Part shown: one piece after another, positions 5,277 through 31,589 of the stretch
Layout: every line of letters starts with the position of its first letter
Numbering within the stretch: the stretch's first letter is position 1
Virus record (IMG/VR): IMGVR_UViG_3300028920_000174
Coordinates: 1 to 35,452 of that record
Origin: a virus
Reading direction: 5' to 3' (one strand)
Length of the DNA: 35,452 nt
Notes under the pieces: generated by a model
Seen by the model: the letters and a program-made list of their open reading frames with translations, nothing else
What the model was told of the DNA's origin: nothing
Databases searched by the model: none
Translations under genes and position numbers: made by a program

Positions 5277-6854
5277 CTAGTTCGCCGGGGACTGCTGGCG
5301 GGGGGACGACGACGTGGGCCTCTGGGGCCTCTCCGCGAGCTCGCGGCCATCGCCGTTGCCCCCCGATGTCTCAGTCTCTTCAGCCTGCTGTTCTTCCCAC
5401 TCTTCCTTCGTGAGGCGATCGTCGTCGGCCGCGCCCCCGTCGATCGTGAGACCAAGCTCCGCTGCGAGCTCCAGTTCGCGCTTGAGCTCCCGGAAGACCT
5501 CCTCGACGTCCTCGCCCTTCTCCGCGAGGAACGACGTGCGGGTCCCGAGCCCGTTCTCGATGGCCATGACAGCAGCCTTCGTCTCTTTCTGGGGATCGAT
5601 CCAGGGCCATCCGCGCGGCCTGTGCCGGACAGCCATGTATCTGCCCGGGTTCTTGGATGCGAGCTTCAACCGGCCGGTGAGAAGCGCCATGCGAAGCCAC
5701 GCATCGTAGAGCGGCCTGCGCCACATGTCGATGAAGTCCTGCTGGAGCGACTGCCAGTCGTCGCGCTCGATGAGGGCGAAGCTCCGCATCGTCGAGTACG
5801 TTACTTGCTCCGCGTCGTTCGCGAGGACATTGTAGAAGACACTGAGCCCGGAGGAGACCTTGCGGAGCATCTGTTTCACGAAGGCCGGGAACTGGCCGGT
5901 TGGATGATCCGGGGACCAGCCGGTGAACCCCCAGCCCTCGTCGAGGCGGGTGATCGCGCCCGGGCTCGCTTCCATCTTCAGGTTCTTCTTGCCGGAAGCT
6001 CCACCGGCTCCGAATCCGTCACCCTTCTTCTCGATGAATCCCATCTTCGCCGCGGCCACACGGGAAGCGATCGCCTCACTTTCCTCGTAGGCGTTCAGCA
6101 TGTGCGCCGGGCCCATCGCCGCATGGATCCACGTCACGCCCCGGGTCTGGTTCACGCGGTCCTGGCTGTAGATGTGGATCATCTCGTCTGCGGGCACGAA
6201 GTAGCGCTCGCGGTAGACGTCGATGCCGGCGGACTGCGTCATGTTCCATACCCAGTAGCCGACCGGGCGGCCGATCTTGTCAACCTCGACACCCATCCTG
6301 ATCTCGTTCGAGCTCGGACTGGCGCCGCGGTTGTATGTCACATCAATGAGATCGGCATCGATCGGCTGGAGCGCGAGACCAAAGGGGTTGCCCTCGTACC
6401 CGCGCCAGAGACGGACGAAGATCTCCCCGTCGCATGCCCATGTCTTCAGGAGGAGCTTCTCGAACTCCCGCAGACCCGTGCGGCCATCGACGGTCACGGG
6501 ATGACTCGCCCACTCGCGCCACGCCTCTTCGATCGCGGTGTTCGTGGTCTCGTCGAGCTGGCGATCGGACTTCCTGACCTGCGCCTGGAGCTTGATGCCC
6601 ATCGGGCCGATCACGTTGTTTGTGAGCAGCCGGAAGTAGCGCTTGACGTAGCTGTTGTTCCTTGCGAGCTCGCGCGCCCGCGCGCGGAGCCGGCGGACGT
6701 TGCCGCGGATCTCCTGGTCCGGGGAGCGGCAGCTCGCGATCCAGTCCGCCAGAATCCGGTTCATGTCCGCGGCGTCGTAGGCGGATCGCGCGCCGAGCAT
6801 CTCGAGCGCTGCCAGCCTGAAGGCGCGCCGGAGCCGCACGTGGAACGGTCTCAT
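5277..6854 (-). CDS. Portal protein, lambda gpB type
   Basis: The protein has 525 residues. The portal forms the dodecameric ring at one capsid vertex through which DNA enters and leaves. The lambda-portal family is recognisable: an N-terminal RARARELARNNSYVKRYFRLLTNN region with VIGPMGIKLQ, the WACDGEIFVRLWRGYEGNPF block, LQPIDADLID, EMIHIYSQDRVNQTRGVTWI, and the clip/stem segment near LSVFYNVLANDAEQVTYSTMRSFALIERD. The C-terminus is acidic then Ser/Pro-rich. ATG 6854 was chosen because it overlaps the upstream stop as ATGA; an in-frame GTG at 6863 is possible. It is encoded on the strand opposite terminase and capsid. Confidence 0.93.
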   Translation of the reverse strand: MRPFHVRLRRAFRLAALEMLGARSAYDAADMNRILADWIASCRSPDQEIRGNVRRLRARARELARNNSYVKRYFRLLTNNVIGPMGIKLQAQVRKSDRQLDETTNTAIEEAWREWASHPVTVDGRTGLREFEKLLLKTWACDGEIFVRLWRGYEGNPFGLALQPIDADLIDVTYNRGASPSSNEIRMGVEVDKIGRPVGYWVWNMTQSAGIDVYRERYFVPADEMIHIYSQDRVNQTRGVTWIHAAMGPAHMLNAYEESEAIASRVAAAKMGFIEKKGDGFGAGGASGKKNLKMEASPGAITRLDEGWGFTGWSPDHPTGQFPAFVKQMLRKVSSGLSVFYNVLANDAEQVTYSTMRSFALIERDDWQSLQQDFIDMWRRPLYDAWLRMALLTGRLKLASKNPGRYMAVRHRPRGWPWIDPQKETKAAVMAIENGLGTRTSFLAEKGEDVEEVFRELKRELELAAELGLTIDGGAADDDRLTKEEWEEQQAEETETSGGNGDGRELAERPQRPTSSSPRQQSPAN

Positions 6855-7402
6855 GTCTCCCACCCGGGTTTCGTGAACTCCACGTAGATCGTGTCACCGA
6901 CCGCGCCGGGGTGCTTCAAGCGCTCGAGCTGCGCCTCGAGCGTTCTCAGCATCGATACCGCTTCCCGGAGCGGTAGCTTCGAGACTGCGCGGCCGGCGAT
7001 CGAGTAGCTCTCCATGCCGGAGGGAAGGCGTCCCTCGATGTGCGCGCGGAGGGCCTCGATCGCACGTTCCGTCCACTCCTGGGCGCTCTGGTCGGTCGCC
7101 TTCGTGAGATCGGGGAGGAGAGTGACGACTCCCGCGTCGACCTCGTAGACCGCGCCGTCCTTGCTCACGCGCTCGGCGTAGTGATAGAGCCCGGCCGCGA
7201 TGCCGTCCGTCGTCGATGCGTCGATCGTGATGATGAAGTCATCGTCCTCGGTCGTGGCTTCGACCTTGGCGACGTTCGCGCCGGCCAGATAGAGCGTGAA
7301 GGTCCAGCCGTCGCCGGCGGGGTAGTCGCTGAGCTGCTTGCGGTAGGTGACAGTCGTTCCGGCTGCGAACGATTCCGGAAGCGATGTGAGTTCCTGGCTC
7401 AT
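6851..7402 (-). CDS. Predicted head/virion protein upstream of portal
   Basis: The protein has 183 residues and is the first gene of the leftward operon. The N-terminal 110 residues form a beta-rich domain (SFAAGTTVTYRKQLSDYPAGDG..., WTFTLYLAG, YHYAERVSKDGAVYEVDAGVVTLL). The C-terminal 70 residues are helical (SAQEWTERAIEALRAHIEGR; REAVSMLRTLEAQLERLKH), as in small proteins encoded next to portal genes. Its stop overlaps the portal start by 4 bp, so translation is coupled. The start is uncertain: ATG 7402 has no clear ribosome binding site, and TTG codons at 7438/7444 lie in the palindrome region. Confidence 0.6.
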   Translation of the reverse strand: MSQELTSLPESFAAGTTVTYRKQLSDYPAGDGWTFTLYLAGANVAKVEATTEDDDFIITIDASTTDGIAAGLYHYAERVSKDGAVYEVDAGVVTLLPDLTKATDQSAQEWTERAIEALRAHIEGRLPSGMESYSIAGRAVSKLPLREAVSMLRTLEAQLERLKHPGAVGDTIYVEFTKPGWET

Positions 7403-7543: not shown

Positions 7544-9559
7544 ATGGAGACCGGCACACAGATTCGCACGCTCAAGGTCCCGCGCATTCAGTACCGCGAG
7601 TTCACCGTCATCGGCCGCGGGGACGTGATCGTCGAAGAGTCTACGGACGATACACCGGAGGTGCGGAAGTACCCGCTCACACTCTCGAGCGAGCAGCCTG
7701 TACGGCGCTATGACTGGTGGAACGACGAGTACTACTACGAGGTCCTCTCGCACGAAAATGCCGACGTCGACCTCTCCGTCGCTGAGGCAGGGCTGCCGCT
7801 CCTGAAGTCTCATACTCGACTCCTCCACTCAGGATCCATCGAGGATGTGGAGATCGACGCGCAGCGGAAGGTGCTCCGGGGCAACGCGCGGTTCGCGTCA
7901 ACGCAACTCGGCACCGATGAGGAGACCATGGTCCGCGAGGGCCACACAAAGCGGGTCTCCGTGGGCTATGAGATCCTCGGATACGATCTGCTCTCGCGCG
8001 ATGAGGAGACCGGGATCGCAACCTATCTCACGAGATGGAGGCCGCTCGAGGGTTCGACCGAGCCGCTCCCTGCTGACCAGACCGTGGGCTTCGGGCGCGC
8101 GCGGCCCCAGGACGGTCCCGACGAGAAGAAGACCGCGCGCGCGGAGGAAGGCATCGAGTTCGTGGAAATCGCTGTCGAGGAGGGAGAAGAGCGGCAGGCA
8201 GAACCGCTCGCGAAGGGAGAGAGAAGCATGGGACAGGAACTGAAGCAGGCGGGAGCGCCGGGTACTCCGGAGACGCCGATCGCCGGTGGAGGGGAGGAGC
8301 GAGGTATGCCCGCCAGGGAGAGAAACGCCGAGGTCGCCGATATCCTCGAGATGTGCGAGGCGCACGGCGTAGGCGACCGCGCGGCGGGATGGATCCGCGA
8401 GGGACTGAGCGTCGAGCGGATCCAGCGTGAGATCCTCGGAATCGTGAAGACCCGGGGCGGCGTGGCGCAGCCGCCGGCGGAGTCGCTCGACCTCTCGGCA
8501 AGGGAGGCGAGGAGCTACTCCTACCAGCGCGCGATCAGGATCGCCGCCGGCATGGACCGCCGTGAGGGGTTCGAGGCGGAGATCCACGACGAGCTCGCAA
8601 AGCGCGGAAGCGGCCCGCAGCACAACGGTATCCTCGTGCCGCTCAGGCTGCGCGATGCCCAGGAGCCCACCGAGTACGGCCGGAGAACGCTGGGGATCAC
8701 CGAGCCCGGCACCGGGTCCGTCGTCGGGACACAGCGGCTCGAGTTCATCGACATCCTCCGGAAGAAGGCCCGCTGCCTCGAGTTCGGCGCGCGGTTCCTC
8801 CCCGGCCTCACGGGTGTCGTGATGATGCCCAAGAAGACCGGTGAGGCGACGGTCCAGTGGATGGAGGAGAACCCCGCGGCCGACGCTACCGCCACCGAGC
8901 CGGAGTACGGCTACGTGCTCATGGCGCCGAAGACCATGATCGGGACGGTGCCGATCCCGCGGCAGGTCCTCGCGGTCCAGTCGTTCGATGTCGAGGCCGA
9001 TATCACGAACGACCTCGCCCTCGGGACGAGCCACGCGCTCGATCTGGCTGCGATCCACGGCACAGGAACGAACAAGCAGCCGGCCGGGATCTACTCCGCC
9101 GCCGACGTCCAGTCGAAGGCGATGGGTGGTGTCCCGAGCTACCCGAAGCTCGCTGCCATGGTCGGACAGGTCGCCGACGAGGACGCCGACTTCGGCGCCC
9201 TGGCATGGATGACCACACCGCTCATGGCCGCCAAGCTGCTGGCGACGGTGATCGAGTCCGGCTATCCCAAGTTCATCTGGGACGGCAAGGTCGCCGACGG
9301 CACTATGGTCGGCTACCGCGCGGGGGCGACGAACCAGGTCTCGAAGACACTCGGATCCGGTGCGGACGAACACGGGCTCATCTTCGGGAACTGGAACGAG
9401 CTCGTGATCGGGATGTGGGGCAACGAGGTCGAGCTCGTTGTCGACGTTACGTCCAAGGCGAAGAAGGGCATCATCGATGTCACCTCGTTCGCGATGGGCG
9501 ACGTCGCCATCCGGCACCCCGAGGCGTTCGTCAAGGCGACAGGCGCGAAGACGGCCTAG
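7544..9559 (+). CDS. Prohead protease-major capsid protein fusion (HK97 fold)
   Basis: The protein has 671 residues; ATG 7544 is preceded by AGAGGA. Residues about 1-190 are a serine protease of the HK97 prohead type, with candidate catalytic His90 (LLKSH) and Ser139 (RVSVGYE). Residues about 220-320 form a charged delta-domain/linker region. Residues about 320-671 form the HK97-fold capsid subunit (TVQWMEENPAADATATEPEYGYVLMAPKT, ITNDLALGTSHALDLAAIHGTG, TSFAMGDVAIRHPEAF). An in-frame ATG at 8228 with AAGGGAG upstream could allow separate synthesis of the capsid part. Self-cleavage of the fusion would also yield mature capsid protein. The portal gene lies upstream on the other strand instead of in line. 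Confidence 0.92.
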   Translation: METGTQIRTLKVPRIQYREFTVIGRGDVIVEESTDDTPEVRKYPLTLSSEQPVRRYDWWNDEYYYEVLSHENADVDLSVAEAGLPLLKSHTRLLHSGSIEDVEIDAQRKVLRGNARFASTQLGTDEETMVREGHTKRVSVGYEILGYDLLSRDEETGIATYLTRWRPLEGSTEPLPADQTVGFGRARPQDGPDEKKTARAEEGIEFVEIAVEEGEERQAEPLAKGERSMGQELKQAGAPGTPETPIAGGGEERGMPARERNAEVADILEMCEAHGVGDRAAGWIREGLSVERIQREILGIVKTRGGVAQPPAESLDLSAREARSYSYQRAIRIAAGMDRREGFEAEIHDELAKRGSGPQHNGILVPLRLRDAQEPTEYGRRTLGITEPGTGSVVGTQRLEFIDILRKKARCLEFGARFLPGLTGVVMMPKKTGEATVQWMEENPAADATATEPEYGYVLMAPKTMIGTVPIPRQVLAVQSFDVEADITNDLALGTSHALDLAAIHGTGTNKQPAGIYSAADVQSKAMGGVPSYPKLAAMVGQVADEDADFGALAWMTTPLMAAKLLATVIESGYPKFIWDGKVADGTMVGYRAGATNQVSKTLGSGADEHGLIFGNWNELVIGMWGNEVELVVDVTSKAKKGIIDVTSFAMGDVAIRHPEAFVKATGAKTA

Positions 9560-20485: not shown

Positions 20486-22980
20486 TGGGCTTCTGGCTCA
20501 CACTTCTGATCTATGTCGGCCTCCAGATCGCATACGATCTCCTGAAGCCGAAGCCGCACTTCGACTCACCCGAACCGTCCTCGCTTGGTGACTTCCGTTT
20601 CCCGACCATCGGAGAGGGGCGAGCAATCCCAATCGTGTGGGGCACCTGCAAACTGTCGGGGCCGATGGTTACGTGGTACGGAGACCTCGAGGCCGAGGCG
20701 ATGAAAGAGGAGTATCAAACGGGTCTCTTCACCAGCGAGGAAGTCATCACGCACTATCGCTACTATCTCGGCATGCAGCTTGTGCTCTGTAGCGGAGAGA
20801 TCGACGAGGTCCTTCAGATCCGGTTCGACAACAAGCAGCCGGTCCACCGCTCTGACGAGTTCGGATGGGATCTCTTCGAGCAGTCGATCGAGTACACGCC
20901 CGGGGAGCATTCCACAACCGCCAGCATCGACGCGTGTCAGCTCTTCGGCGGGGAGGATCAGGAAGGCGGAGTCAAGGGGCAGGTGGAGATCTACCATGGG
21001 ACGGCGGGCCAGACAGCTGATTCGTATCTTGTGGATCAAATCGGGAGCGCACTCCCGGCGTACAGGCACATCTGCTACGCGGTCTTCAAACACGTCTACC
21101 TGGGCACGAGTCCATATATCAAGGACATCTCCTTCGTCGTGCGGCGCTGCCCCAATAGCCTGGCTCTCCAAGATGGAGATCACGACATTGATGGCGACGC
21201 GAATCCGGCGGCCATGATCTACGAGCTCCTGACGCGCCCGCCAGGGCAGAACGGTTTGGGCATCCCGGTGGGGATGATCGATCTCGATGGGTTCAGGGAA
21301 GTAGGCGCGACTCTCGCGGCAGAGGAGCTCGGGCTTTCCATGCAAGTGGACCAGACGAGCTCGGCCAAGGACCTGATTCTCGAGATTTGCCGGCACATCG
21401 ATGCCGTGGTCTATCAGGAACCGTCGACGGGATTTCTCACGATCAAGCTCATCCGGTTCGACTACGAAGAGGAGGGCCTGCCCGTTCTCGATGAGAGCAA
21501 CTGCACAGTGACGAGCTTCTCGCGGTCGAGCTGGGACGAGACGAAGAACCAGGTGCGCGTGTCCTTCCTGGACCGGGGCACACTCCTACTCCCCGACGAG
21601 GTCGGCGTCTCGAGGGCCGGATTCGAGGAGCGGTCCATTCAGGTTCAGGACCTCGCGGCGATCGAGGCGCGGGGCGGGCAGGTCTCTACGCTCAATCTGA
21701 ACCTCCGTGGCTTCTCCAACCCGACGAACGCACAGAGGGCCGGTGCTCGGGCTCTCAAGACAGTCTGCTATCCAGTCGCATCGATGGAGATCTCCAGCAA
21801 CCGCTCATGCTGGGCCTTCCGCCCGGGCACAGTGTTCAAGCTCAACTGGCCGCCCCTGGGCATCGAGGGCCTCGTCTGTCGTGTGACCAAGGTCGCACTG
21901 GGTGAGCTGCGCGATGGCGAGATCGTTCTGGAGGCCATGGAGGACGTATTCGCAGTTGACTGGGTGGCCTATACACCACCAGGAGATTCGGACTGGGACG
22001 ATCCAGCAGTGGTTCTGCCGGCGCTGACCGATCAGGCTGCGATGCTCGCGCCCTATGAGGCGACGAAGAACCTGCCGACGCCAGAGGGAGGAGCGCAGCA
22101 GGCCGTCGTGGCAGCGGCACGCGGCACGGCAGGACTGTCCAAGGGCTTCAACGCAGTAATCGAGGAGACCGCCACGCGGTTCGCGTGGTTCACGCCGAGT
22201 GGCACGCTCGAGTCAGAGATCACCGAGAGCTCCACGTCGATCGTCGTCGACGCGGAATCCGACGCCCTTCGCATCGCATCGGTCAATGATCCGGACCACG
22301 ACGCGGGCGCGAACATCGCATGGCTCGTGGACGACTCCGGACTCGAGGAGTTCATCGCGTTCAAGACCGTGGCGATCGTGGGGAACGAGATCACACTTTC
22401 GGTCCTGGCTCGCGGCTGCCTCGACACGGCGCCGACGGCTTTCAGCGCCGACACGCGGATCTGGTTCTTGTCCTATGGCAATGGCGTCGTCAACATCAAC
22501 GGCTCTGGGATGACAGAGATCACCTTCCAACCCTTCAACAACCTCGGTGGCTACGATATCGACGAGTGTCCATCGGAGCAGGTCACGGCGATCTCCCCGC
22601 CTCGGCGCGATCGCGTCTACTGCCCCACCGATGTCAAGTTCAACGGCATGAGCTACCCGTCCTCGATCTCCGGCGAGCTCACAGTGTCATGGGAGCACCG
22701 CAACCGGCTGGGCGCGTGGGGCTATGCAGACTCGGGCAAGACGGACACGCCAGAGACAGACACGGAGTACGACGTCCTCGTCTATGGCGAATCCGACACG
22801 CTCGTCCACACGGAAGAGGGCGTGACGGGAAAGAGCTGGACTTACCTCGAGGCCGATGAGATCGCCGAGTCAGGGCTCGGCAGACTGAACAACCATCTCC
22901 GCGTGATCCTCCGGACGTATGGCGACGGCCGGAACCACCAGGCCATCCGGGAGATCGAGTGGGAGATGGACAGGGTCTAA
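20485..22980 (+). CDS. Tail hub/central tip protein (gpJ/GTA g15-like)
   Basis: The protein has 831 residues; the ATG at 20485 shares a base with the previous stop. A membrane-like N-terminus (GFWLTLLIYVGLQIAYDLL) is followed by the usual hub opening (RAIPIVWGTCKLSGPMVTWYGD). Next come the central hub-like domain with EICRHIDAVVYQEPSTGFLTIKLIR and the NQVRVSFLDRG region, then beta-rich distal domains ending near LSWEH-type fibronectin-like strands (GELTVSWEHRNRLGAWGYAD). The length and place suit a Phage-tail_3-type protein that closes the tube and carries receptor-binding modules. Confidence 0.8.
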   Translation: MGFWLTLLIYVGLQIAYDLLKPKPHFDSPEPSSLGDFRFPTIGEGRAIPIVWGTCKLSGPMVTWYGDLEAEAMKEEYQTGLFTSEEVITHYRYYLGMQLVLCSGEIDEVLQIRFDNKQPVHRSDEFGWDLFEQSIEYTPGEHSTTASIDACQLFGGEDQEGGVKGQVEIYHGTAGQTADSYLVDQIGSALPAYRHICYAVFKHVYLGTSPYIKDISFVVRRCPNSLALQDGDHDIDGDANPAAMIYELLTRPPGQNGLGIPVGMIDLDGFREVGATLAAEELGLSMQVDQTSSAKDLILEICRHIDAVVYQEPSTGFLTIKLIRFDYEEEGLPVLDESNCTVTSFSRSSWDETKNQVRVSFLDRGTLLLPDEVGVSRAGFEERSIQVQDLAAIEARGGQVSTLNLNLRGFSNPTNAQRAGARALKTVCYPVASMEISSNRSCWAFRPGTVFKLNWPPLGIEGLVCRVTKVALGELRDGEIVLEAMEDVFAVDWVAYTPPGDSDWDDPAVVLPALTDQAAMLAPYEATKNLPTPEGGAQQAVVAAARGTAGLSKGFNAVIEETATRFAWFTPSGTLESEITESSTSIVVDAESDALRIASVNDPDHDAGANIAWLVDDSGLEEFIAFKTVAIVGNEITLSVLARGCLDTAPTAFSADTRIWFLSYGNGVVNINGSGMTEITFQPFNNLGGYDIDECPSEQVTAISPPRRDRVYCPTDVKFNGMSYPSSISGELTVSWEHRNRLGAWGYADSGKTDTPETDTEYDVLVYGESDTLVHTEEGVTGKSWTYLEADEIAESGLGRLNNHLRVILRTYGDGRNHQAIREIEWEMDRV

Positions 22981-22993
22981 GGAGGTGGGCGAG

Positions 22994-23296
22994 GTGTCCA
23001 GACTAGTTGATCTAGCACTTGGGCGCTGTACGTCTGATGGACGATGGGAGACCGACTTCGGGCGCTGGGTCGCGGACTACGGCCCCTCGGAGATCGTCGA
23101 GAGATTCCGTGAGGATCCGGAGCTCCGGATAACGCAGCATGCGGTCTACGAGTGGCTGCGCGGCCACGTGCCGCGCGTGGAGCGCGCCATGGCTCTTGTC
23201 GAGCTCTCGGCCGGGCACCTCACGCTGGAGCAGATCTACGCCCACGGGAACCAGGTGAAAGTCATGTCGGATGGCCCGGATCACTCGGAGCGGTAG
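22994..23296 (+). CDS. Small putative DNA-binding regulator (paralogue of the gene at 31296)
   Basis: The protein has 100 residues from GTG 22994, 8 bases after AAGGAGG. The core (residues about 16-86) is a helix-turn-helix-like domain with HAVYEWLRGH, followed by RAMALVELSAGHLTLEQIYAH. This is the shape of small Cro/YdaS-like phage regulators that end in a LT-EEIYAH-type helix. By hand alignment 46 of 69 residues match the early-region protein at 31296. A regulator in the middle of the late operon, between tail genes, is odd. It may feed back on late expression or pair with its paralogue. Confidence 0.7.
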   Translation: MSRLVDLALGRCTSDGRWETDFGRWVADYGPSEIVERFREDPELRITQHAVYEWLRGHVPRVERAMALVELSAGHLTLEQIYAHGNQVKVMSDGPDHSER

Positions 23297-24919: not shown

Positions 24920-25531
24920 TTGGCGCGTTCGAAGAAGACGAAGAAGACGAAGCCGAAGAAGCCCCGCAAGACCACCCGGGCCAAGAGGAAGCTGGTCTCA
25001 CAGCGCGCGTTCGCCAGTCAGATCGGCGTCTCGCAGAGCGCTGTGTGCCAGGCAATCAAGGCCGGCCGTATCTCCACCGTCAATGGGAAGATCGATCCGG
25101 TCGCGGCGAAGCGGGAGTGGAAGAGCAACACCGACCAGAGCAAACCGCGCAATCGCGTCACGGGCAAGCCGAAGCAACGGCGGAATCCGAAGAAGCCAGA
25201 AGAGCCGATGGACCTCGACGGGGCATCGGCGAAGGAGGGAGCGGGAGGGAATAGCAGCTCCTACGCGAAGGCGCGTGCGGCGCGGGAGGTCTACACCGCG
25301 CAGCTGAAGAAGCTCCAGCTCGAGCGCGAGCGGGCGGCACTTGTCTCCGCAGACGAGGTGCGCGCGGCAATGTTCAGCTTGGCGCGTCGGACTCGCGACG
25401 AGCTCATGGCCCTGCCCGAACGCATGTCAGCAATCCTCGCTGCAATCGATGATGCCGCAGAGATCGATCGGGTGCTCGAGGATGAGATCGACCGGATCTG
25501 CCAGGAGTTCTCGAATGCAGACGGGTTTTGA
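24920..25531 (+). CDS. Terminase small subunit (Nu1-like)
   Basis: The protein has 203 residues from TTG 24920, with AGGTGA upstream. The Lys/Arg-rich start is followed by a helix-turn-helix (SQRAFASQIGVSQSAVCQAIKAGRI, residues about 27-51) that would bind the packaging site. A polar linker and a C-terminal helical part (YTAQLKKLQLERERAALVSADEV..., LMALPERMSAILAA) mediate oligomer and large-subunit contacts. This is the Nu1 layout. It overlaps the large subunit gene by 17 bp, as is usual for this pair. Confidence 0.85.
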   Translation: MARSKKTKKTKPKKPRKTTRAKRKLVSQRAFASQIGVSQSAVCQAIKAGRISTVNGKIDPVAAKREWKSNTDQSKPRNRVTGKPKQRRNPKKPEEPMDLDGASAKEGAGGNSSSYAKARAAREVYTAQLKKLQLERERAALVSADEVRAAMFSLARRTRDELMALPERMSAILAAIDDAAEIDRVLEDEIDRICQEFSNADGF

Positions 25532-27371
25532 TGTCTGCAGCTCTGCCTACCGTGAGGGATGGCGGCCCGAGCCTCGGCTCAAGGTCAGCGAATGGGCCGA
25601 CCTCCATCGAAGGCTTGGCAACCGCGCGGGCCGAAGCGCAACGCGGTGGCGCACAGACACGGTGCCCTATACACGCGACATCATGGACGCGCTCAGTCCA
25701 CGTTCGCCGTGGCGTCGTGTTGTGCTCATGAAGGGGTCGCAGCTCGCGGGAACTACGCTCGGGAACAACTGGTTGGGCTTCATCATGGACCAGTCGCCCG
25801 GGGCCATCCTTGTGCTACGGCCGACCGTTGATGAGGCGCGCCGATTCAGCCGCCAGCGGCTCGACCCGATGATTGCGACGACACCGGCGCTGAGCCGTCT
25901 GGTGAAGGAACCTCGATCGCGTGATGGCAGCAACAGTCTTCTCATCAAGGAGTTCCCCGGTGGTGTGCTCTTCCTGACCGGGTCGAACTCGGCCACGGGT
26001 GTGAAGTCGATGCCGATCCGCTACCTCTTCTGTGATGAGATCGACGAGTACCCGGGTGACATCGATGGTCAGGGAGACCCGATTGTCCTCGCCGAGAAGC
26101 GAATGAGCGGCCCGGTCCACGCCCGTCGGAAGGAGTATCTGGTCTCGACGCCGACGATCAAGGGGCTCTCCAGGATCGAACGCGAGTTCCTCGCGTCGGA
26201 TCAGCGGCGCTATTTCGTGCCGTGTCCCCACTGCGGTCACTTCGACTGGATCAGATGGGAGAACATCCGATACGAGGAGAACCGTCCGGAGACTGCCGTG
26301 CTCGTCTGCGTTGAGTGCGGAGGAGTGATCGAGGAGCGGTTCAAGCCGCAAATGCTGGCGCAGGGCCAGTGGCGCCCGACCGCCGATGGGGAGGTCGATC
26401 CCGAGACGATCGGATTCCACATCTCGAGCCTCTACTCGCCCCTCGGCTGGCTGCCCTGGTCGTCCATCGTGCGAGAGTTCCTCCTCGCAAAGAAGGATCC
26501 ACTGCGCCTGAAGACCTGGGTCAACACCGTGCTCGGTGAGACCTGGGAGGAGCGCGGGGAGACGGTCGATCCGGAGAGCATCCTGGCGCGTGCCGAAGCC
26601 TACGCGGGCGAGGTCCCTGACGGCATCGGCGTGTTGGTGGCGGCCGTCGATGTACAGGACGACCGGCTTGAATGTGCTGTGAAGGGCTACGGCGCATCCG
26701 AGGAATCCTGGCTCGTTGCGTATCAGGTCTTCCATGGGGATCCTGGTGGAGATGCCCTCTGGCTCGAGCTTGATACGTTTCTGCGGCATGAGTTCCGGCA
26801 CGAGTCTGGCGCCCCCGTTGAGATCAGGTGTACTACGGTCGACAGTGGAGGCCACCATACCGAACAGGTCTACAAGTTCTGCAAGGCGCGAGCGGACCGG
26901 AGCGTACTGGCTGTCCGCGGGACGGGAGATCGCGGGAAGCCGCTCGTCGGACGGCCGAGCGATCACAATCGCTACCGGGCTAAGCTCTTCAATCTCTGCG
27001 TGGACGTCGGGAAGGAGATCGTCTACTCCCGGCTCCGGATCGACGCGCCGGGGCCGGGCTACTGCCACTTGCCGCAGTGGGTTGATGAAGAGTACGTCGC
27101 ACAGCTGACAGCGGAGAAGGCCGTCTATCGCTACAGGAAGCACAGGGGCTCCGTGCGGGAGTGGATCAAGATGCGCGAGCGGAACGAGGCGCTCGACCTG
27201 GAGGTCTACTGCCTCGCCGCGCTCTACATCCTGGGACCTGACTTCATCAGGTCACTTCCCGAGCGAGCGGCTGCCCTGGGCAAACGCGTTGAGCAAGGCG
27301 CGAAGACCGATGACGAAGAGGTGGCTGTCCAGACCAGACCCGGCTGGGTGGACGGTTGGCGTGGAAGCTGA
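25515..27371 (+). CDS. Terminase large subunit, GpA family
   Basis: The protein has 618 residues; ATG 25515 lies inside the small-subunit gene. It packages DNA into the prohead and cuts it. An ATPase part has a GpA-type P-loop variant (KGSQLAGTT) and Walker B CDEIDEYP near residue 173. A zinc finger CPHC...CVEC lies at about 236-275. The nuclease part has Asp candidates in VAAVDVQDD (near 378) and TVDSGGHH (near 441). GpA-type enzymes usually make cos ends, so the physical genome may be linear with cohesive ends even though it assembles as a circle. The portal gene does not follow, unlike in most relatives. Confidence 0.95.
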   Translation: MQTGFDVCSSAYREGWRPEPRLKVSEWADLHRRLGNRAGRSATRWRTDTVPYTRDIMDALSPRSPWRRVVLMKGSQLAGTTLGNNWLGFIMDQSPGAILVLRPTVDEARRFSRQRLDPMIATTPALSRLVKEPRSRDGSNSLLIKEFPGGVLFLTGSNSATGVKSMPIRYLFCDEIDEYPGDIDGQGDPIVLAEKRMSGPVHARRKEYLVSTPTIKGLSRIEREFLASDQRRYFVPCPHCGHFDWIRWENIRYEENRPETAVLVCVECGGVIEERFKPQMLAQGQWRPTADGEVDPETIGFHISSLYSPLGWLPWSSIVREFLLAKKDPLRLKTWVNTVLGETWEERGETVDPESILARAEAYAGEVPDGIGVLVAAVDVQDDRLECAVKGYGASEESWLVAYQVFHGDPGGDALWLELDTFLRHEFRHESGAPVEIRCTTVDSGGHHTEQVYKFCKARADRSVLAVRGTGDRGKPLVGRPSDHNRYRAKLFNLCVDVGKEIVYSRLRIDAPGPGYCHLPQWVDEEYVAQLTAEKAVYRYRKHRGSVREWIKMRERNEALDLEVYCLAALYILGPDFIRSLPERAAALGKRVEQGAKTDDEEVAVQTRPGWVDGWRGS

Positions 27372-27394
27372 TCGAGGACCGGGAGGACGTGATC

Positions 27395-28111
27395 ATGATC
27401 CGCTGGGCACGAACTGTAGGCCACCCATCGAGTGTTCTCATCCGCGACACCAAGTCCCGCATCTCACAGCAGATCCGCCTGTGGAGCTGGTACCGCGGCG
27501 AGCAGCAGGGGAGCTGGGTGAATCACTACGCCTACCTCGGCTCCGATCGCAGTTGGATCGTCGAGGCCCTTTTCGGGGGTGTGGAACAGGGCACACTCGC
27601 GAAGTACGATGACTCGAATGTCTGCTGGGGCATCATCATTGAGCATCTCGGGTTCTCACTCAGAGAGCACACGATCGCCGATGGCGCCGCGCTCGCGTTC
27701 GTCGGGAAGCCCTACAACGTCGTGTCGATCGCCAAGCAGTTCCTCGACGGACTCTTCTCGAAGCTCCTGGGCAGGGACGTCTATCTGCTGCGCCGGCTGA
27801 GCCTGCCAGGTGTGGCCGCGATGATCTGTTCGCAGCTTGGCGTCAAGGTTCATCGCGTCGCCGGCTGGAAGTTCATGGGGCTCAAGACGGTCTACCGGAA
27901 GGAGCAGAAGGGCATCTCTCTGCGGCTTCGGGCCGTGCAGATCCTCGCCGAGCTGCCGGATAGAAGGGCGGCTCCGGACTGCATCTGGGACGATGCCCTC
28001 GAGCACAGGCCCTCTCTCTACCGTATCGTGGGGGAGATCAACCCAGACCTGCGTCCACCGGATCTCATTCCGGTGATCGCCGCGAAGATCGACAAGGATC
28101 TGGCCTGGTAG
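27395..28111 (+). CDS. Permuted papain-like (YiiX/NlpC-type) hydrolase
   Basis: The protein has 238 residues; ATG 27395 has GGGAGG 8 bases upstream, and TTG 27356 is a weaker alternative inside terminase. The order of candidate catalytic residues is His44 (VNHYAYLG) first and Cys145 (MICSQLG) second, which is the circularly permuted papain-like order of YiiX-type enzymes. VEALFGGV and GKPYNVVSIAKQFLDGL fit the intervening strands. These enzymes cleave peptide or amide bonds in peptidoglycan or lipids. It ends the rightward late operon. It may act in entry or virion maturation, but its placement after terminase gives no firm clue. Confidence 0.55.
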   Translation: MIRWARTVGHPSSVLIRDTKSRISQQIRLWSWYRGEQQGSWVNHYAYLGSDRSWIVEALFGGVEQGTLAKYDDSNVCWGIIIEHLGFSLREHTIADGAALAFVGKPYNVVSIAKQFLDGLFSKLLGRDVYLLRRLSLPGVAAMICSQLGVKVHRVAGWKFMGLKTVYRKEQKGISLRLRAVQILAELPDRRAAPDCIWDDALEHRPSLYRIVGEINPDLRPPDLIPVIAAKIDKDLAW

Positions 28112-28120
28112 ACACCGCAC

Positions 28121-28199
28121 CCTGTCTCGCGTCTTCGCTTGACTCTCCATCACGAATGTGGCATGATGGTGTCGCCGGGTTCGTGAAGGGCGAGACAGG
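28121..28199 (+). promoter_or_regulatory. Inverted repeat enclosing a promoter and covering the ribosome binding site
   Basis: The perfect 10-bp arms are CCTGTCTCGC (28121-28130) and GCGAGACAGG (28190-28199). Pairing extends through CTTC (28133-28136) with GAAG (28185-28188) past a small bulge. The right arm runs into the AGGAGG (28197-28202) that serves ATG 28211. The promoter lies between the arms. Transcripts from upstream contain both arms and could hide the ribosome binding site; transcripts from the internal promoter contain only the right arm. Confidence 0.55.
28139..28167 (+). promoter_or_regulatory. Sigma70-type promoter for the first cargo gene
   Basis: TTGACT at 28139-28144, a 17-base spacer and CATGAT at 28162-28167, with TGG just before the -10 (extended -10). 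Transcription would start near 28174, 37 bases before ATG 28211. It gives the membrane-protein genes their own promoter, as expected for cargo genes expressed from a prophage. Confidence 0.55.
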
Positions 28200-28210
28200 A
28201 GGATGAGTAT

Positions 28211-28792
28211 ATGCGCACGGTATGCTGGGTCGGCATCGCGCTGCTGCTCTTCGCGGAGTCTGCGGCCGCCGACACGATCATCCTCAAGAACGGGCTCGCT
28301 ATCTCTGGTATGCTCGTCGACCGAGAGCAGATCCGATCACATGAGTTACTACCTCCGCAGATCGCGGTCGTGGATTCGGCCGGGGAGCGTCAGGAGATCG
28401 CGCTCGCGGATATCGATCGTGTCATCATCGAGGATCCCGACGGGGTCCGGATCGTGGGAGCCAGAGCACAGCCCAAGAGCAGTATCGGTAGGACGGGCAT
28501 CTCGAGAGGCACTGTCCTCATCGGATCCGGTTTCGTTGTTGGGCTCGTCGGAGCTGCAGTCCCGATGGGAGGGGCACGTCCCGTCAGGATTTCGGGAGGG
28601 AGGACCAGGTACGTCACGTCCTATGGCGAGGGCAACTACATCGTCGTCGCTGTAGGTCTTGCCATGGTCGTTACGGGTAGCATCATGAACATGTCGAACG
28701 CTACGGATTTCGCTTCGGCCCCACTCACTGTACAACCTGGCTCCGCACCACTTTCCGGGACCCCCGGCATCGTCTGCTGTCTCCGGTTCTGA
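28211..28792 (+). CDS. Envelope cargo protein with signal peptide and two membrane helices
   Basis: The protein has 193 residues, with AGGAGG 8 bases before ATG 28211. A cleavable signal peptide (about residues 1-20, ending AAA) precedes a small beta domain (DTIILKNGLAISGMLV..., IALADIDRVIIEDPDG). This is a domain type frequent in secreted proteins of GC-rich environmental bacteria. Two hydrophobic helices follow (about 95-118 and 138-158). It has its own promoter and lies between the late and integration regions, the usual place of a lysogenic-conversion gene. Its effect, such as exclusion of other phages or envelope change, is unknown. Confidence 0.65.
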   Translation: MRTVCWVGIALLLFAESAAADTIILKNGLAISGMLVDREQIRSHELLPPQIAVVDSAGERQEIALADIDRVIIEDPDGVRIVGARAQPKSSIGRTGISRGTVLIGSGFVVGLVGAAVPMGGARPVRISGGRTRYVTSYGEGNYIVVAVGLAMVVTGSIMNMSNATDFASAPLTVQPGSAPLSGTPGIVCCLRF

Positions 28793-28812
28793 TCTGCCAG
28801 GGGAGGTCGAGA

Positions 28813-29079
28813 ATGGCTGGCCGCATGGTGTACCAAATGGTCTGTAGACAGTGCGGAACCGTGGGGTTCCCGCGGACCTATACCAAGGGGTCCATCTGGG
28901 TGGAGCTGATCCTCTGGGTCTGCCTTCTTGTTCCCGGGCTCATCTACTCTCTCTGGAGGGTCACCTCGCGTTACAAGGGCTGTCCTGCCTGCGGCGCCGC
29001 TGGGATGATCCCGCTCAATGCGCCCATGGCCAAGGAGATCCTGGGCCGCACGGCAGCCACCCCGCGAGATTCCGCTTGA
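28813..29079 (+). CDS. Small zinc-ribbon membrane protein
   Basis: The protein has 88 residues, with GGGAGG before ATG 28813. A Cys pair (CRQC, residues 12-15), one membrane helix (VELILWVCLLVPGLIYSLW), then a second Cys pair (CPAC) make a split zinc ribbon straddling the helix. I know similar short proteins from bacterial chromosomes; their function is not established. It follows the envelope cargo gene by 20 bp and probably shares its promoter. A role in superinfection exclusion is possible. Confidence 0.65.
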   Translation: MAGRMVYQMVCRQCGTVGFPRTYTKGSIWVELILWVCLLVPGLIYSLWRVTSRYKGCPACGAAGMIPLNAPMAKEILGRTAATPRDSA

Positions 29080-29102
29080 CACGAATCAGGGCCGGCTATA
29101 GT
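29076..29102 (+). promoter_or_regulatory. Promoter candidate ahead of a structured RNA
   Basis: TTGACA (29076-29081) is a perfect -35 and TATAGT (29097-29102) a good -10, but the spacer is only 15 bases. The -35 overlaps the stop of the preceding gene. CGCTTGAC is shared with the promoter at 28139. Transcription would start near 29109 and run through the stem-rich segment. Confidence 0.45.
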
Positions 29103-29107
29103 CTCGG

Positions 29108-29265
29108 TCCTGGAGGTCGAACCGACATGAGAACGCCGCCAAACTGTCCCGGCAGAATAGCAAGATCCGGAACCCATCCGAGGTTCGGCGTTGCGGCCCT
29201 TGAGGCCGTGCCCGGGACAGGCCACGGGTGGGTTTCTCTTAGTGGGGCCCGGTAGGGCCCCGGCG
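29108..29265 (+). ncRNA. Candidate structured small RNA (three-helix fold plus GC hairpin)
   Basis: A 9-bp perfect stem (CTGTCCCGG 29144-29152 with CCGGGACAG 29212-29220) encloses two hairpins. One has GAACC (29170-29174) paired with GGTTC (29182-29186) around a 7-base loop; the other has CGGCC (29194-29198) paired with GGCCG (29204-29208) around a 5-base loop. Downstream is a 7-bp hairpin, GGGGCCC (29244-29250) with GGGCCCC (29255-29261), which could end the transcript. A 42-codon frame from ATG 29127 runs through the same bases but looks unlike a protein. No known RNA class is recognised. Confidence 0.4.
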
Positions 29266-29355
29266 CCCCACGCCGCTCTTTGACAGTCGATTGCTGCGGA
29301 ACGAAGTGCCCGAGAGGACCAGCGCAGGAAGGGCTCTTCTTCTTTTTGCTGGTGC

Positions 29356-29398
29356 GTGTCGCATAAGACATATTATCTGGCAAGTAACACGGCCAGAT
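29356..29398 (+). other. dif-like site, candidate phage attachment site (attP)
   Basis: GTGTCGCATAA (29356-29366), a 6-base centre (29367-29372) and TTATCTGGCAA (29373-29383) follow the 11+6+11 plan of Xer recombination sites with the conserved CATAA/TTAT inner ends. The left arm matches 8 of 11 bases of the E. coli XerC arm, the right 6 of 11 of the XerD arm. Overlapping it is a second inverted repeat, ATCTGGC (29375-29381) and GCCAGAT (29392-29398). Either could be the core site of the XerC/D-like integrase encoded 630 bp downstream. Confidence 0.45.
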
Positions 29399-29447
29399 CA
29401 TCAATCCTCCGACGCGCCCGCGTGACACCTCATCGCCTGAGCATATC

Positions 29448-29475
29448 TTGATACCCCCACCTTTCCTGTGATACT
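29448..29475 (+). promoter_or_regulatory. Promoter for the integrase/early operon
   Basis: TTGATA (29448-29453), a 16-base spacer and GATACT (29470-29475) with TGT directly before the -10 (extended -10). The segment is AT-rich for this genome. Transcription would start near 29482 and meet a terminator-like hairpin 32 bases later, before the gene at 29573. Confidence 0.5.
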
Positions 29476-29513
29476 CTCAACTATCTAGCGAGTCGGGAAA
29501 TACTACTCTCGAG

Positions 29514-29552
29514 AGCCCGTTCCGCAGCCGCGCGCTGCTGGAGCGGGCTTTT
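29514..29552 (+). terminator. Terminator-like hairpin in the leader of the integrase operon (attenuator candidate)
   Basis: AGCCCGTTCC (29514-29523) pairs with GGAGCGGGCT (29540-29549) through one G-T pair. Inside, GCAGC (29524-29528) pairs with GCTGC (29534-29538) around a 5-base loop. The stem is followed by TTTT (29549-29552). The 10-bp palindrome CTCTCGAGAG (29506-29515) overlaps the foot and could compete. It lies between promoter and first gene, so it may stop most transcripts unless antiterminated. Confidence 0.55.
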
Positions 29553-29572
29553 CTACAGGAAGGGGTCACACC

Positions 29573-30019
29573 ATGAATCCGCAACACGAGACCCTCGAAC
29601 CCGTTGAGTTCGTCCTCCGCCGCATCCCCGAGGTCCGGGTCATCTTCGCCGATTACGAATCGGCCCTCATCCAGATCCTGACCGGGGAGCGGCCCTGCCA
29701 GTTCCGGAGCTCCGAGCACCGGCTCTGGCTCTTCGCCCGTGCCTTCACGGCGGCCACCTCGGACGCCTTCGCAGACCAGGCCACCGAACGCAGCCGCGCC
29801 CAGACCTCGCGGCTCTGCATGCTGCAGGACCGTCTCGACCGTCTCGAGCGCGATCTTGAGCAGTCGCGAGAGCGGGGCCTGGTTGACCGGGCCGTCCGCG
29901 CGGCCCTCGAGAAGGAACTGCGATCGCGCGACGGTTTCAACCGCGCTGAGCTCAGGCTCGCGGCCATCGTGCGCGACGCCTCCATGATCGCCGGCCAGCG
30001 CGGGGAGGTAAGCCGATGA
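29573..30019 (+). CDS. Hypothetical coiled-coil protein upstream of integrase
   Basis: The protein has 148 residues, with AGGAAGGGG before ATG 29573. The first 65 residues look globular (VEFVLRRIPEVRVIFADYESALIQILTG). Residues about 75-130 form a long charged helix with heptads (LCMLQDRLDRLERDLEQS). It overlaps the integrase start by 4 bp (ATGA), so the two are made together. It might be a recombination accessory factor, but no excisionase-type HTH is visible. Confidence 0.6.
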   Translation: MNPQHETLEPVEFVLRRIPEVRVIFADYESALIQILTGERPCQFRSSEHRLWLFARAFTAATSDAFADQATERSRAQTSRLCMLQDRLDRLERDLEQSRERGLVDRAVRAALEKELRSRDGFNRAELRLAAIVRDASMIAGQRGEVSR

Positions 30020-30963
30020 AGACGACCATCACAGATCTCATATGCGAGTACCTCGAGCACCTGAAGGACAGGCGCTATTCGCCCCACACACTGGACTCCT
30101 ACGGGCGAGACCTGCGGCTGTTCACCGAGATCACGGGCGCAAACTACCTCGAGGACATCACCCCCGCCGCCGGGGAGGCGTTCCTTGCCGAACTCCGCAG
30201 GCGCCGGCTGGCCTCCGCCACGATCCAGCGGCGCATTGCCGCTCTTCGGTCCTTCGGAGCCTGGCTCGTCAATGAGCGGTGGCTCCTGAAGAACCCGGTT
30301 GACTCGATCCGTCCGCCGAACGTCCGGCGGACGCTGCAGCGCGTGCTCTCAGAAGAGGAGCTCCGACGGGAACTCGATGCGCTCCCCGCGGAGACACTCG
30401 CGGAGCAGCGCGATGCCGCGATTCTCGAGGTGCTCTACGGATCTGGGATCAGGGTCGCGGAGCTCGTCGGTCTCAACCTCGGCGATATGCAGATCTCCTG
30501 GATGAGAGGAGACGATGCGGCGCCGAACCTCCGGGAGATGACCCTGATGATCAAGGTGCTCGGGAAGGGAGCCAAGGAGCGCGTGATCCCGGCAGGCGCG
30601 CACGCCGCCACCGCGGTCCTTCGCTACCTGGTGAGCCGGCGCATTCCTCCGCGATCGATGTTCTCGGCTGAGACGGCGCTCTTTGTCAACGCCTCGGGCG
30701 GGCGACTGACGGCGAGGTCGATCCAGCGCATCGTTGGCGCCCGGTTGAAGAGAGGCGGGCGCGTGACGCCGCACATGCTCCGTCACAGCTTCGCCACGCA
30801 CATGCTGAATCGTGGAGCCGATCTCCGGGCGATCCAGGATCTCCTCGGCCATGAGTCGCTGAGCACGACGCAGCTCTACACGCATTCCACAGCGAGGCGG
30901 CTGATCGAGGTACACGCCAAGGCGCATCCGAGGGCGCGCAGGAGGCCGAATGAAGCGCTCTGA
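30016..30963 (+). CDS. Tyrosine recombinase (integrase), XerC/XerD-like
   Basis: The protein has 315 residues. It catalyses site-specific strand exchange to integrate or excise the prophage or resolve dimers. It has an N-terminal core-binding SAM-like domain (residues about 3-90, with YSPHTLDSYGRDLRLF) and a catalytic domain with a full active set: Arg146 (GSGIRVAEL), Lys184/187 (GKGAKERVIP), His253, Arg256 (HMLRHSFATH), His279 (LGHES) and nucleophile Tyr288 (QLYTH). The length and motifs are Xer-like; there is no arm-binding domain, so it should need no distant arm sites. A dif-like sequence lies in the regulatory region just upstream. Confidence 0.93.
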   Translation: MKTTITDLICEYLEHLKDRRYSPHTLDSYGRDLRLFTEITGANYLEDITPAAGEAFLAELRRRRLASATIQRRIAALRSFGAWLVNERWLLKNPVDSIRPPNVRRTLQRVLSEEELRRELDALPAETLAEQRDAAILEVLYGSGIRVAELVGLNLGDMQISWMRGDDAAPNLREMTLMIKVLGKGAKERVIPAGAHAATAVLRYLVSRRIPPRSMFSAETALFVNASGGRLTARSIQRIVGARLKRGGRVTPHMLRHSFATHMLNRGADLRAIQDLLGHESLSTTQLYTHSTARRLIEVHAKAHPRARRRPNEAL

Positions 30964-31295: not shown

Positions 31296-31589
31296 ATGGC
31301 TGCGACCACAAACAGGGGGCCGCGATGGGAATCAGAGTTCGGCAGATGGGTGGCGGAATACGGGGTGAGCGCGATCGTCGAGGCGCTGGCGAACGACCCA
31401 CAACTGCGCGTGACGAAGCATGCAGTCTACGAATGGCTGCGCGGCCACGCTCCTCACCCGGACCGTGCCCGCGCACTGGTACGTCTGTCCCGGGGGCGCC
31501 TCACGCTGGAGGCGATTTACCAGCATGTCAGAGAAGAACGCGAACGACTGAGACGCGAATCAGAGAAGCGCGAGGCTGCGCATCGCTGA
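31296..31589 (+). CDS. Small putative DNA-binding regulator (paralogue of the gene at 22994)
   Basis: The protein has 97 residues from ATG 31296, 4 bases after the previous stop. The core is WESEFGRWVAEYG..., HAVYEWLRGH, RARALVRLSRGRLTLEAIYQH, then a highly charged helix (REERERLRRESEKREA). About two thirds of residues match the late-region copy at 22994, and the DNA is also alike around HAVYEWLRGH, so the pair arose by duplication or exchange. The early position, after the XRE regulator, fits a repressor or antirepressor. The charged tail is unique to this copy. Confidence 0.7.
   Translation: MAATTNRGPRWESEFGRWVAEYGVSAIVEALANDPQLRVTKHAVYEWLRGHAPHPDRARALVRLSRGRLTLEAIYQHVREERERLRRESEKREAAHR

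Follow-up and report, generated by a model that had tools for sequence, protein, structure and literature searches.

The start of a small gene in a lambda-like phage appears to be built so that efficient translation is reserved for RNA that begins at the promoter of the gene itself, a proposal for which we find the considerations on either side evenly balanced. The phage is a 35.4-kb virus record (35,452 nucleotides), the whole of which was analyzed and is referred to below as the window. The gene is preceded by an inverted repeat whose arms surround a promoter-like site and run into the Shine-Dalgarno (SD) sequence. The elements concerned are as follows.

28121–28130, plus strand: outer left arm CCTGTCTCGC, the perfect complement of 28190–28199
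28139–28144, plus strand: −35 element TTGACT, lying within GCTTGACT, which is common to the related contig L002
28147–28156, plus strand: inner left arm CCATCACGAA, inside the −35/−10 spacer and complementary to 28180–28189 at 9 of 10 positions
28162–28167, plus strand: −10 element CATGAT with an upstream TG (extended −10), at a 17-nt spacer from the −35 element
28174, plus strand: inferred transcription start (approximate), about 7 nt after the −10 element
28180–28189, plus strand: inner right arm TTCGTGAAGG, directly adjoining the outer right arm
28180–28199, plus strand: continuous 3′ hairpin strand (inner and outer right arms), complementary to both left arms at 19 of 20 positions
28190–28199, plus strand: outer right arm GCGAGACAGG, the perfect complement of 28121–28130
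28197–28202, plus strand: Shine-Dalgarno sequence AGGAGG, 8 nt before the ATG at 28211
28211–28792, plus strand: the gated gene, an open reading frame of 193 aa
28278–28285, plus strand: TCATCCTC in the coding sequence, an alternative partner of the SD region 28199–28206

A previous reading of the same DNA, made from the sequence only, had described the two ten-base perfect arms and the merging of the right arm with AGGAGG. Both observations are confirmed at the same coordinates, with the first three bases of AGGAGG (28197–28199) being the last three of the outer right arm. That reading had also extended the outer arms by four pairs after a bulge. The four pairs (CTTC/GAAG) do exist, but the inner arm pairs better, and the extension was rejected because the minimum-energy fold uses the inner arms (28147–28156 with 28180–28189). 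The inner pair is absent from the sequence-only reading, and the complementarity is thus stronger than first described: the 20-nt strand 28180–28199 has its partners in two upstream stretches, one on either side of the −35 box. An interpretation of the hairpin as an intrinsic terminator was also rejected, since no U tract follows it. A search of the window against Rfam returned no match.

By themselves, the outer arms count for little, because perfect 10-bp inverted repeats are not rare in this GC-rich window; with spacers of up to 80 nt, eight are present vs 4.6 ± 2.2 in shuffles. Chance does not account for the joint match, in which 19/20 positions of the segment that runs into the SD are complementary. 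It did not turn up once when the upstream 85 nt were dinucleotide-shuffled 20,000 times, nor among 20,000 random 85-mers from the phage; the outer match alone arose in 20 and the inner match alone in 46 of the 20,000 shuffles. The folding z-score of 28117–28203 is −4.0 (0 of 1000 shuffles), a somewhat flattering value in that the interval was picked after the hairpin had been seen. Across the phage, a fold this extreme was seen in 4 of 1415 windows. The strongest local RNA fold of the window lies elsewhere, at 1440–1550, where GGUGCCGCUUCGGGCC and GGCCCGGAGCGCGCACC form a long, near-perfect stem (z of −7.9 for 1451–1540 with 40 shuffles, and −3.7 over 111 nt).

The hairpin may instead be a by-product without a regulatory role, left by chance, by composition, or by a past inverted duplication or template switch. 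The promoter and the ribosome site would then be real, and the gene's own promoter would simply drive its expression, whether or not upstream transcription reads in. We regard this explanation as a serious one, though somewhat short of probable. The excess of perfect 10-bp repeats in the window (8 vs 4.6 expected) is in its favor, whereas the absence of the joint match from 20,000 shuffles argues against it, as does the placement of the strands: the 3′ strand runs exactly into the SD, and the 5′ strands lie wholly upstream of the inferred start.

Folding predictions distinguish the two kinds of transcript. Read-through RNA was modeled with a 200-nt leader and the internal RNA from position 28174, a comparison along the lines suggested with the sequence-only reading, and the SD was predicted to be far less accessible in the long RNA. 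With the 200-nt leader, opening the SD of the read-through RNA costs 8.4–9.9 kcal/mol, compared with 1.5–2.5 kcal/mol in RNA from 28174 carrying up to 70 nt of coding sequence. For the 31-nt ribosome footprint, the opening costs are 17–23 and 9–12 kcal/mol, respectively, a difference of 6–12. Among 27 gene starts, the gating of 7.3 kcal/mol at this gene ranks top; the next is 4.7 (at 29573), and all others are 1.1 or less. When 28112–28136 is deleted, the SD opening cost falls to 0.9. The earlier idea that read-through RNA can fold over the ribosome site is therefore supported by prediction, with the SD buried at an opening cost of 8–10 kcal/mol and the effect lost without the left segment. 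With random phage 25-mers in place of 28112–28136, the observed value was reached 2 times in 300. Shuffles of this pyrimidine-rich segment also closed the SD in 46 of 300 cases; base composition thus does part of the gating, a result that favors the by-product explanation.

The internal RNA, from approximately 28174, lacks the left arms as had been claimed. The accompanying statement that it "stays translatable" was too strong, because at equilibrium the SD can pair with 28278–28285. Owing to this pairing, the opening cost rises past approximately 75 coding nt, and it amounts to 4.5–7.3 kcal/mol in internal RNA with 75 or more coding nt. Ribosomes loading during transcription would be expected to meet the open internal RNA first.

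The candidate promoter, TTGACT-17-TGG-CATGAT, has a score of 9/12 and is the only match to TTGAC...TGnNANNNT in the window on either strand. The promoter-like site that the previous reading had placed between the arms is therefore present (28139–28167), unique in pattern, and recurs in its layout in L002. In that contig, GCTTGACT is followed at 17-nt spacing by TGA-GAGAAT, and the distance from the −10 element to the ATG is 44 nt vs 43 nt here. GCTTGACT, the spacing, the TGn, and the ATG distance all recur in intergenic DNA of L002 that is otherwise mostly poorly alignable, and this shared layout is the best evidence in the sequences that the candidate promoter is real. SD accessibility is nearly constant for RNA starts between 28172 and 28178. 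No T4-type late promoter TATAAATA is present in 28100–28211, where TTGACT-17-CATGAT is found instead.

The same dyad could be read at the level of DNA, as an operator in which TTCGTGA half-sites at 28150–28156 and 28180–28186 (about +7) bind a phage repressor controlling the promoter, for example one of the Cro-like proteins encoded at 22919 or 31296. The inner half-sites flank the −10 element, as operators often do, and TTCGTGA occurs at 8 other places, two of which (6870 and 7101) are near the portal/capsid divergence. However, those other copies are single and unpaired, L002 retains the promoter but not the half-sites, and the outer arms, which are the most perfect part of the repeat, would be left unexplained. 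We consider an operator quite improbable.

L002, the one syntenic relative, is a 6.4-kb contig with 58–60% identity in the gene starting at 27371 and 40% identity in the gated gene. Its intergenic DNA is mostly poorly alignable except at the promoter and at the ribosome site, where the Shine-Dalgarno sequence is conserved as CAGGAGGATGAG. The left arms are missing from L002, a 22-column alignment gap lying at their position, and the stop codon of its 27371-gene counterpart overlaps the −35 box. SD opening in L002 costs 1.2–4.7 kcal/mol in the read-through RNA and 1.3–5.1 kcal/mol in the promoter RNA, that is, there is no gating, and the folding z-score of the region (−0.6) is no better than that of shuffles. 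The sequence-only reading had held that relatives keeping the gene but not the complementarity would refute it. L002 keeps the gene, the promoter, and the SD without the hairpin, and by that measure the idea is refuted in the one relative available. This result lowers, without removing, the case for gating in this phage. The persistence of the promoter and the SD where the hairpin is missing likewise favors the by-product explanation. The case survives L002 because the T4 review lists five phages (Aeh1, 44RR, 25, 31, and FelixO1) in which gene e is retained and the structure is missing (PMC3014915).

Judged by the available sequences, the hairpin is specific to the lineage of this phage, and the two sequences compared are compatible with either its gain here or its loss in L002. 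Single-protein and profile scans of viral contigs found L002 as the only further relative of the gated gene, and none was found in the phages collection. A motif scan for GCTTGACT-N44-60-AGGAGGATGAG returned L002 plus seven unrelated matches. In an unrelated phage contig (L147, 9861–9930), a TTGACT-17-TATAAT promoter has the spacer TTCTCCTA, which is complementary to the SD of the next gene, TAGGAGGA, and pairs with it in the fold. Here, too, a promoter spacer may hide an SD in read-through RNA, in what would be a separate instance of the arrangement.

The presence of a long stem in the intergenic region of a read-through RNA also allows the hairpin to be viewed as an RNA-processing or stability element, such as an RNase III-type stem cutting the late from the cargo message, or as an attenuator. 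The stem is absent from L002, it has no U tract and hence is no intrinsic terminator, and nothing specific points to a nuclease. We regard this explanation as very improbable.

The operon upstream of the gated gene is structural, and the following genes serve as landmarks.

About 7544–9559: protease/capsid fusion
25341–27371: gpA-type terminase (Pfam E 1e-85 and 1e-90)
27371–28111, plus strand: upstream gene of 246 aa, counted from the in-frame codon that comes first beyond the terminase (the ORF as listed spans 27356–28111)
30016–30963: tyrosine integrase

Behind the terminase gene, the plus strand carries the 246-aa gene, then the gated gene, then a small zinc-ribbon-like gene. From position 7040 onward the genes share one direction, and no terminator-like site is present in 26500–30500. 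Co-directional upstream genes and the lack of a terminator-like site before the gated gene are consistent with read-through. The portal gene (5277–6863, phrog_21, E 8e-104) is on the minus strand, whereas the capsid, tail, and terminase genes are on the other. Two paralogous small Cro-like proteins, both with a WLRGH motif, are encoded at 22919–23296 and 31296–31589; relatives match at these loci, beside the 23271 gene, in most of the terminase relatives. The stop codon of the 27371 gene is 9 nt 5′ of the outer left arm. The product of this gene weakly resembles permuted papain-like amidases (C92), with a Pfam Peptidase_C92 hit at E 0.013 that is below the cut-off, and its AlphaFold model (mean pLDDT 32) is too poor for use.

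The 27371 gene had no match in genome contigs, and the terminase replaced it as the query for the contig scan. Relatives of the terminase with 72–77% identity were found in MAG contigs labeled as Krumholzibacteriia, Eisenbacteria, Verrucomicrobia, and unnamed bacteria. These labels suggest a host of such a kind, and the phage probably infects bacteria like those carrying the terminase relatives. No relatives of the 27371 gene were found in genomes of the phyla of the Krumholzibacteriia and Eisenbacteria matches.

The product of the gated gene is predicted to be a 193-aa exported or membrane-type protein with a signal-peptide-like start. Its sequence and a low-confidence model indicate a small region rich in beta structure, a pair of hydrophobic helices, and CCLRF as the last residues; the AlphaFold model has a mean pLDDT of 48, too poor for use, and comparison with PHROG and Pfam gave no family above the cut-off. 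A profile search of 80 genomes from the phylum of the Krumholzibacteriia match yielded two distant chromosomal relatives (E 3.5e-5 and 1.3e-4), and 47 genomes from the phylum of the Eisenbacteria match yielded none. The chromosomal relatives (L143 1093–1842 and L144 5–667), from two genomes, are laid out like the phage product, with a signal peptide, an LKNG motif, an NYILV hydrophobic helix, and an RF end. They fit a host-derived passenger gene, as the word "cargo" in the previous reading had implied.

Two further non-coding blocks downstream of the gated gene are conserved in L002. The first, 29078–29240 (L002 5246–5405), follows a TTGACACGAATC promoter-like start and shares the segments AACGCCGCCAAACTSTCCCGG...CCGAGGTTCGGCGTTNCGGCCC...GCCCGGGASAGGCC...TGGGTTTCT. 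Its consensus fold has 42 pairs, four of which are changed on both sides with pairing kept, and a T-rich end. An ORF crosses the block in both phages, and by eye most differences alter the amino acid, which suggests that an RNA structure rather than a peptide is kept. The block was found in this phage and L002 only, and it is a possible phage RNA with no Rfam match. The second block, 29270–29400 (L002 5440–5530), is intergenic and has GCTCTTTGACAG, TGCTGCGGAACG, and TGTCGCATAA in common with L002.

We propose that the 28211 gene is most likely controlled by a lineage-specific read-through silencer that would act in the manner of T4 gene e or I-TevI. Transcripts entering from the terminase and 27371 genes would carry the left arms (28121–28130 and 28147–28156), which would pair with 28180–28199 and keep the Shine-Dalgarno sequence closed. 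The nested sigma-70-type promoter would yield RNA from approximately 28174 that contains the 3′ strand only, leaving the ribosome site open during ribosome loading. The 28211 gene would then follow its own promoter and not the upstream operon. The previous reading's further proposal, that a prophage-expressed membrane protein would thereby be kept off during lytic growth, is a conjecture about timing and purpose. The sequence match, its improbability, the predicted energies, and the return of the promoter layout in a relative are demonstrated, whereas we infer the use of the promoter, the read-through from upstream, and the change in translation. The mechanism is plausible, resting on one genome and on folding, and our confidence in it stands at the midpoint. 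More tentatively, and on balance doubtfully, the arrangement may be a compact read-through insulator on a cargo gene in a lambda-like phage of Krumholzibacteriota-type bacteria, in which the promoter supplies half of the lock, one left arm lying between the −35 and −10 elements and the other immediately 5′ of the −35 element. Such a module could move together with its gene and, outside T4-like phages, make the gene's expression depend on its own sigma-70 promoter.

If the proposed silencer is real, SD silencing of passenger genes in read-through RNA is not confined to T4-type phages, where it is best known, and can arise as well in phages that are unrelated to them and infect uncultured bacteria. 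The arrangement could then be gained or lost between relatives while the promoter and the gene stay. It would also provide a searchable signature for phage cargo genes, namely an SD complement upstream of or inside the promoter spacer.

The precedent cited in the sequence-only reading, read-through silencing of T4 gene e, is as stated there: long upstream transcripts fold with the SD paired, short RNAs from promoters located within the 5′ strand do not contain that strand, and the silencing effect was measured as 100-fold (PMC3014915). The 28211 gene resembles gene e in the predicted pairing of the SD in the long RNA, in a candidate nested promoter whose RNA would lack the 5′ strand, and in having a relative (L002) that keeps the gene without the structure. 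Unlike gene e, which uses the late promoters TATAAATA, lies downstream of an early operon, and has a measured effect, the gene described here has a sigma-70-like promoter and a structural upstream operon, and its gating is predicted from sequence and folding. Since TATAAATA is absent, the arrangement falls outside the T4 late-promoter group. The homing-endonuclease genes I-TevI, I-TevII, I-TevIII, and segB of T4 and mobE of Aeh1 each have their own promoter inside a hairpin by which the SD of the read-through RNA is masked (PMC2988022). As passenger genes in phage operons they are closer in spirit to the 28211 gene than gene e is, but they encode nucleases and use T4 middle or late promoters, whereas the product here is an exported membrane-type protein and the products are unrelated. 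In IS10 and IS50, RNA that reads in from outside folds so as to cover the start of the transposase gene, unlike RNA from the transposase promoter. A passenger is likewise insulated from surrounding transcription in those elements, at insertion-sequence ends there and in a phage operon here. The mechanism is of a known kind; new are the place and host group in which it occurs, the type of promoter, and the division of the 5′ strand into two pieces.
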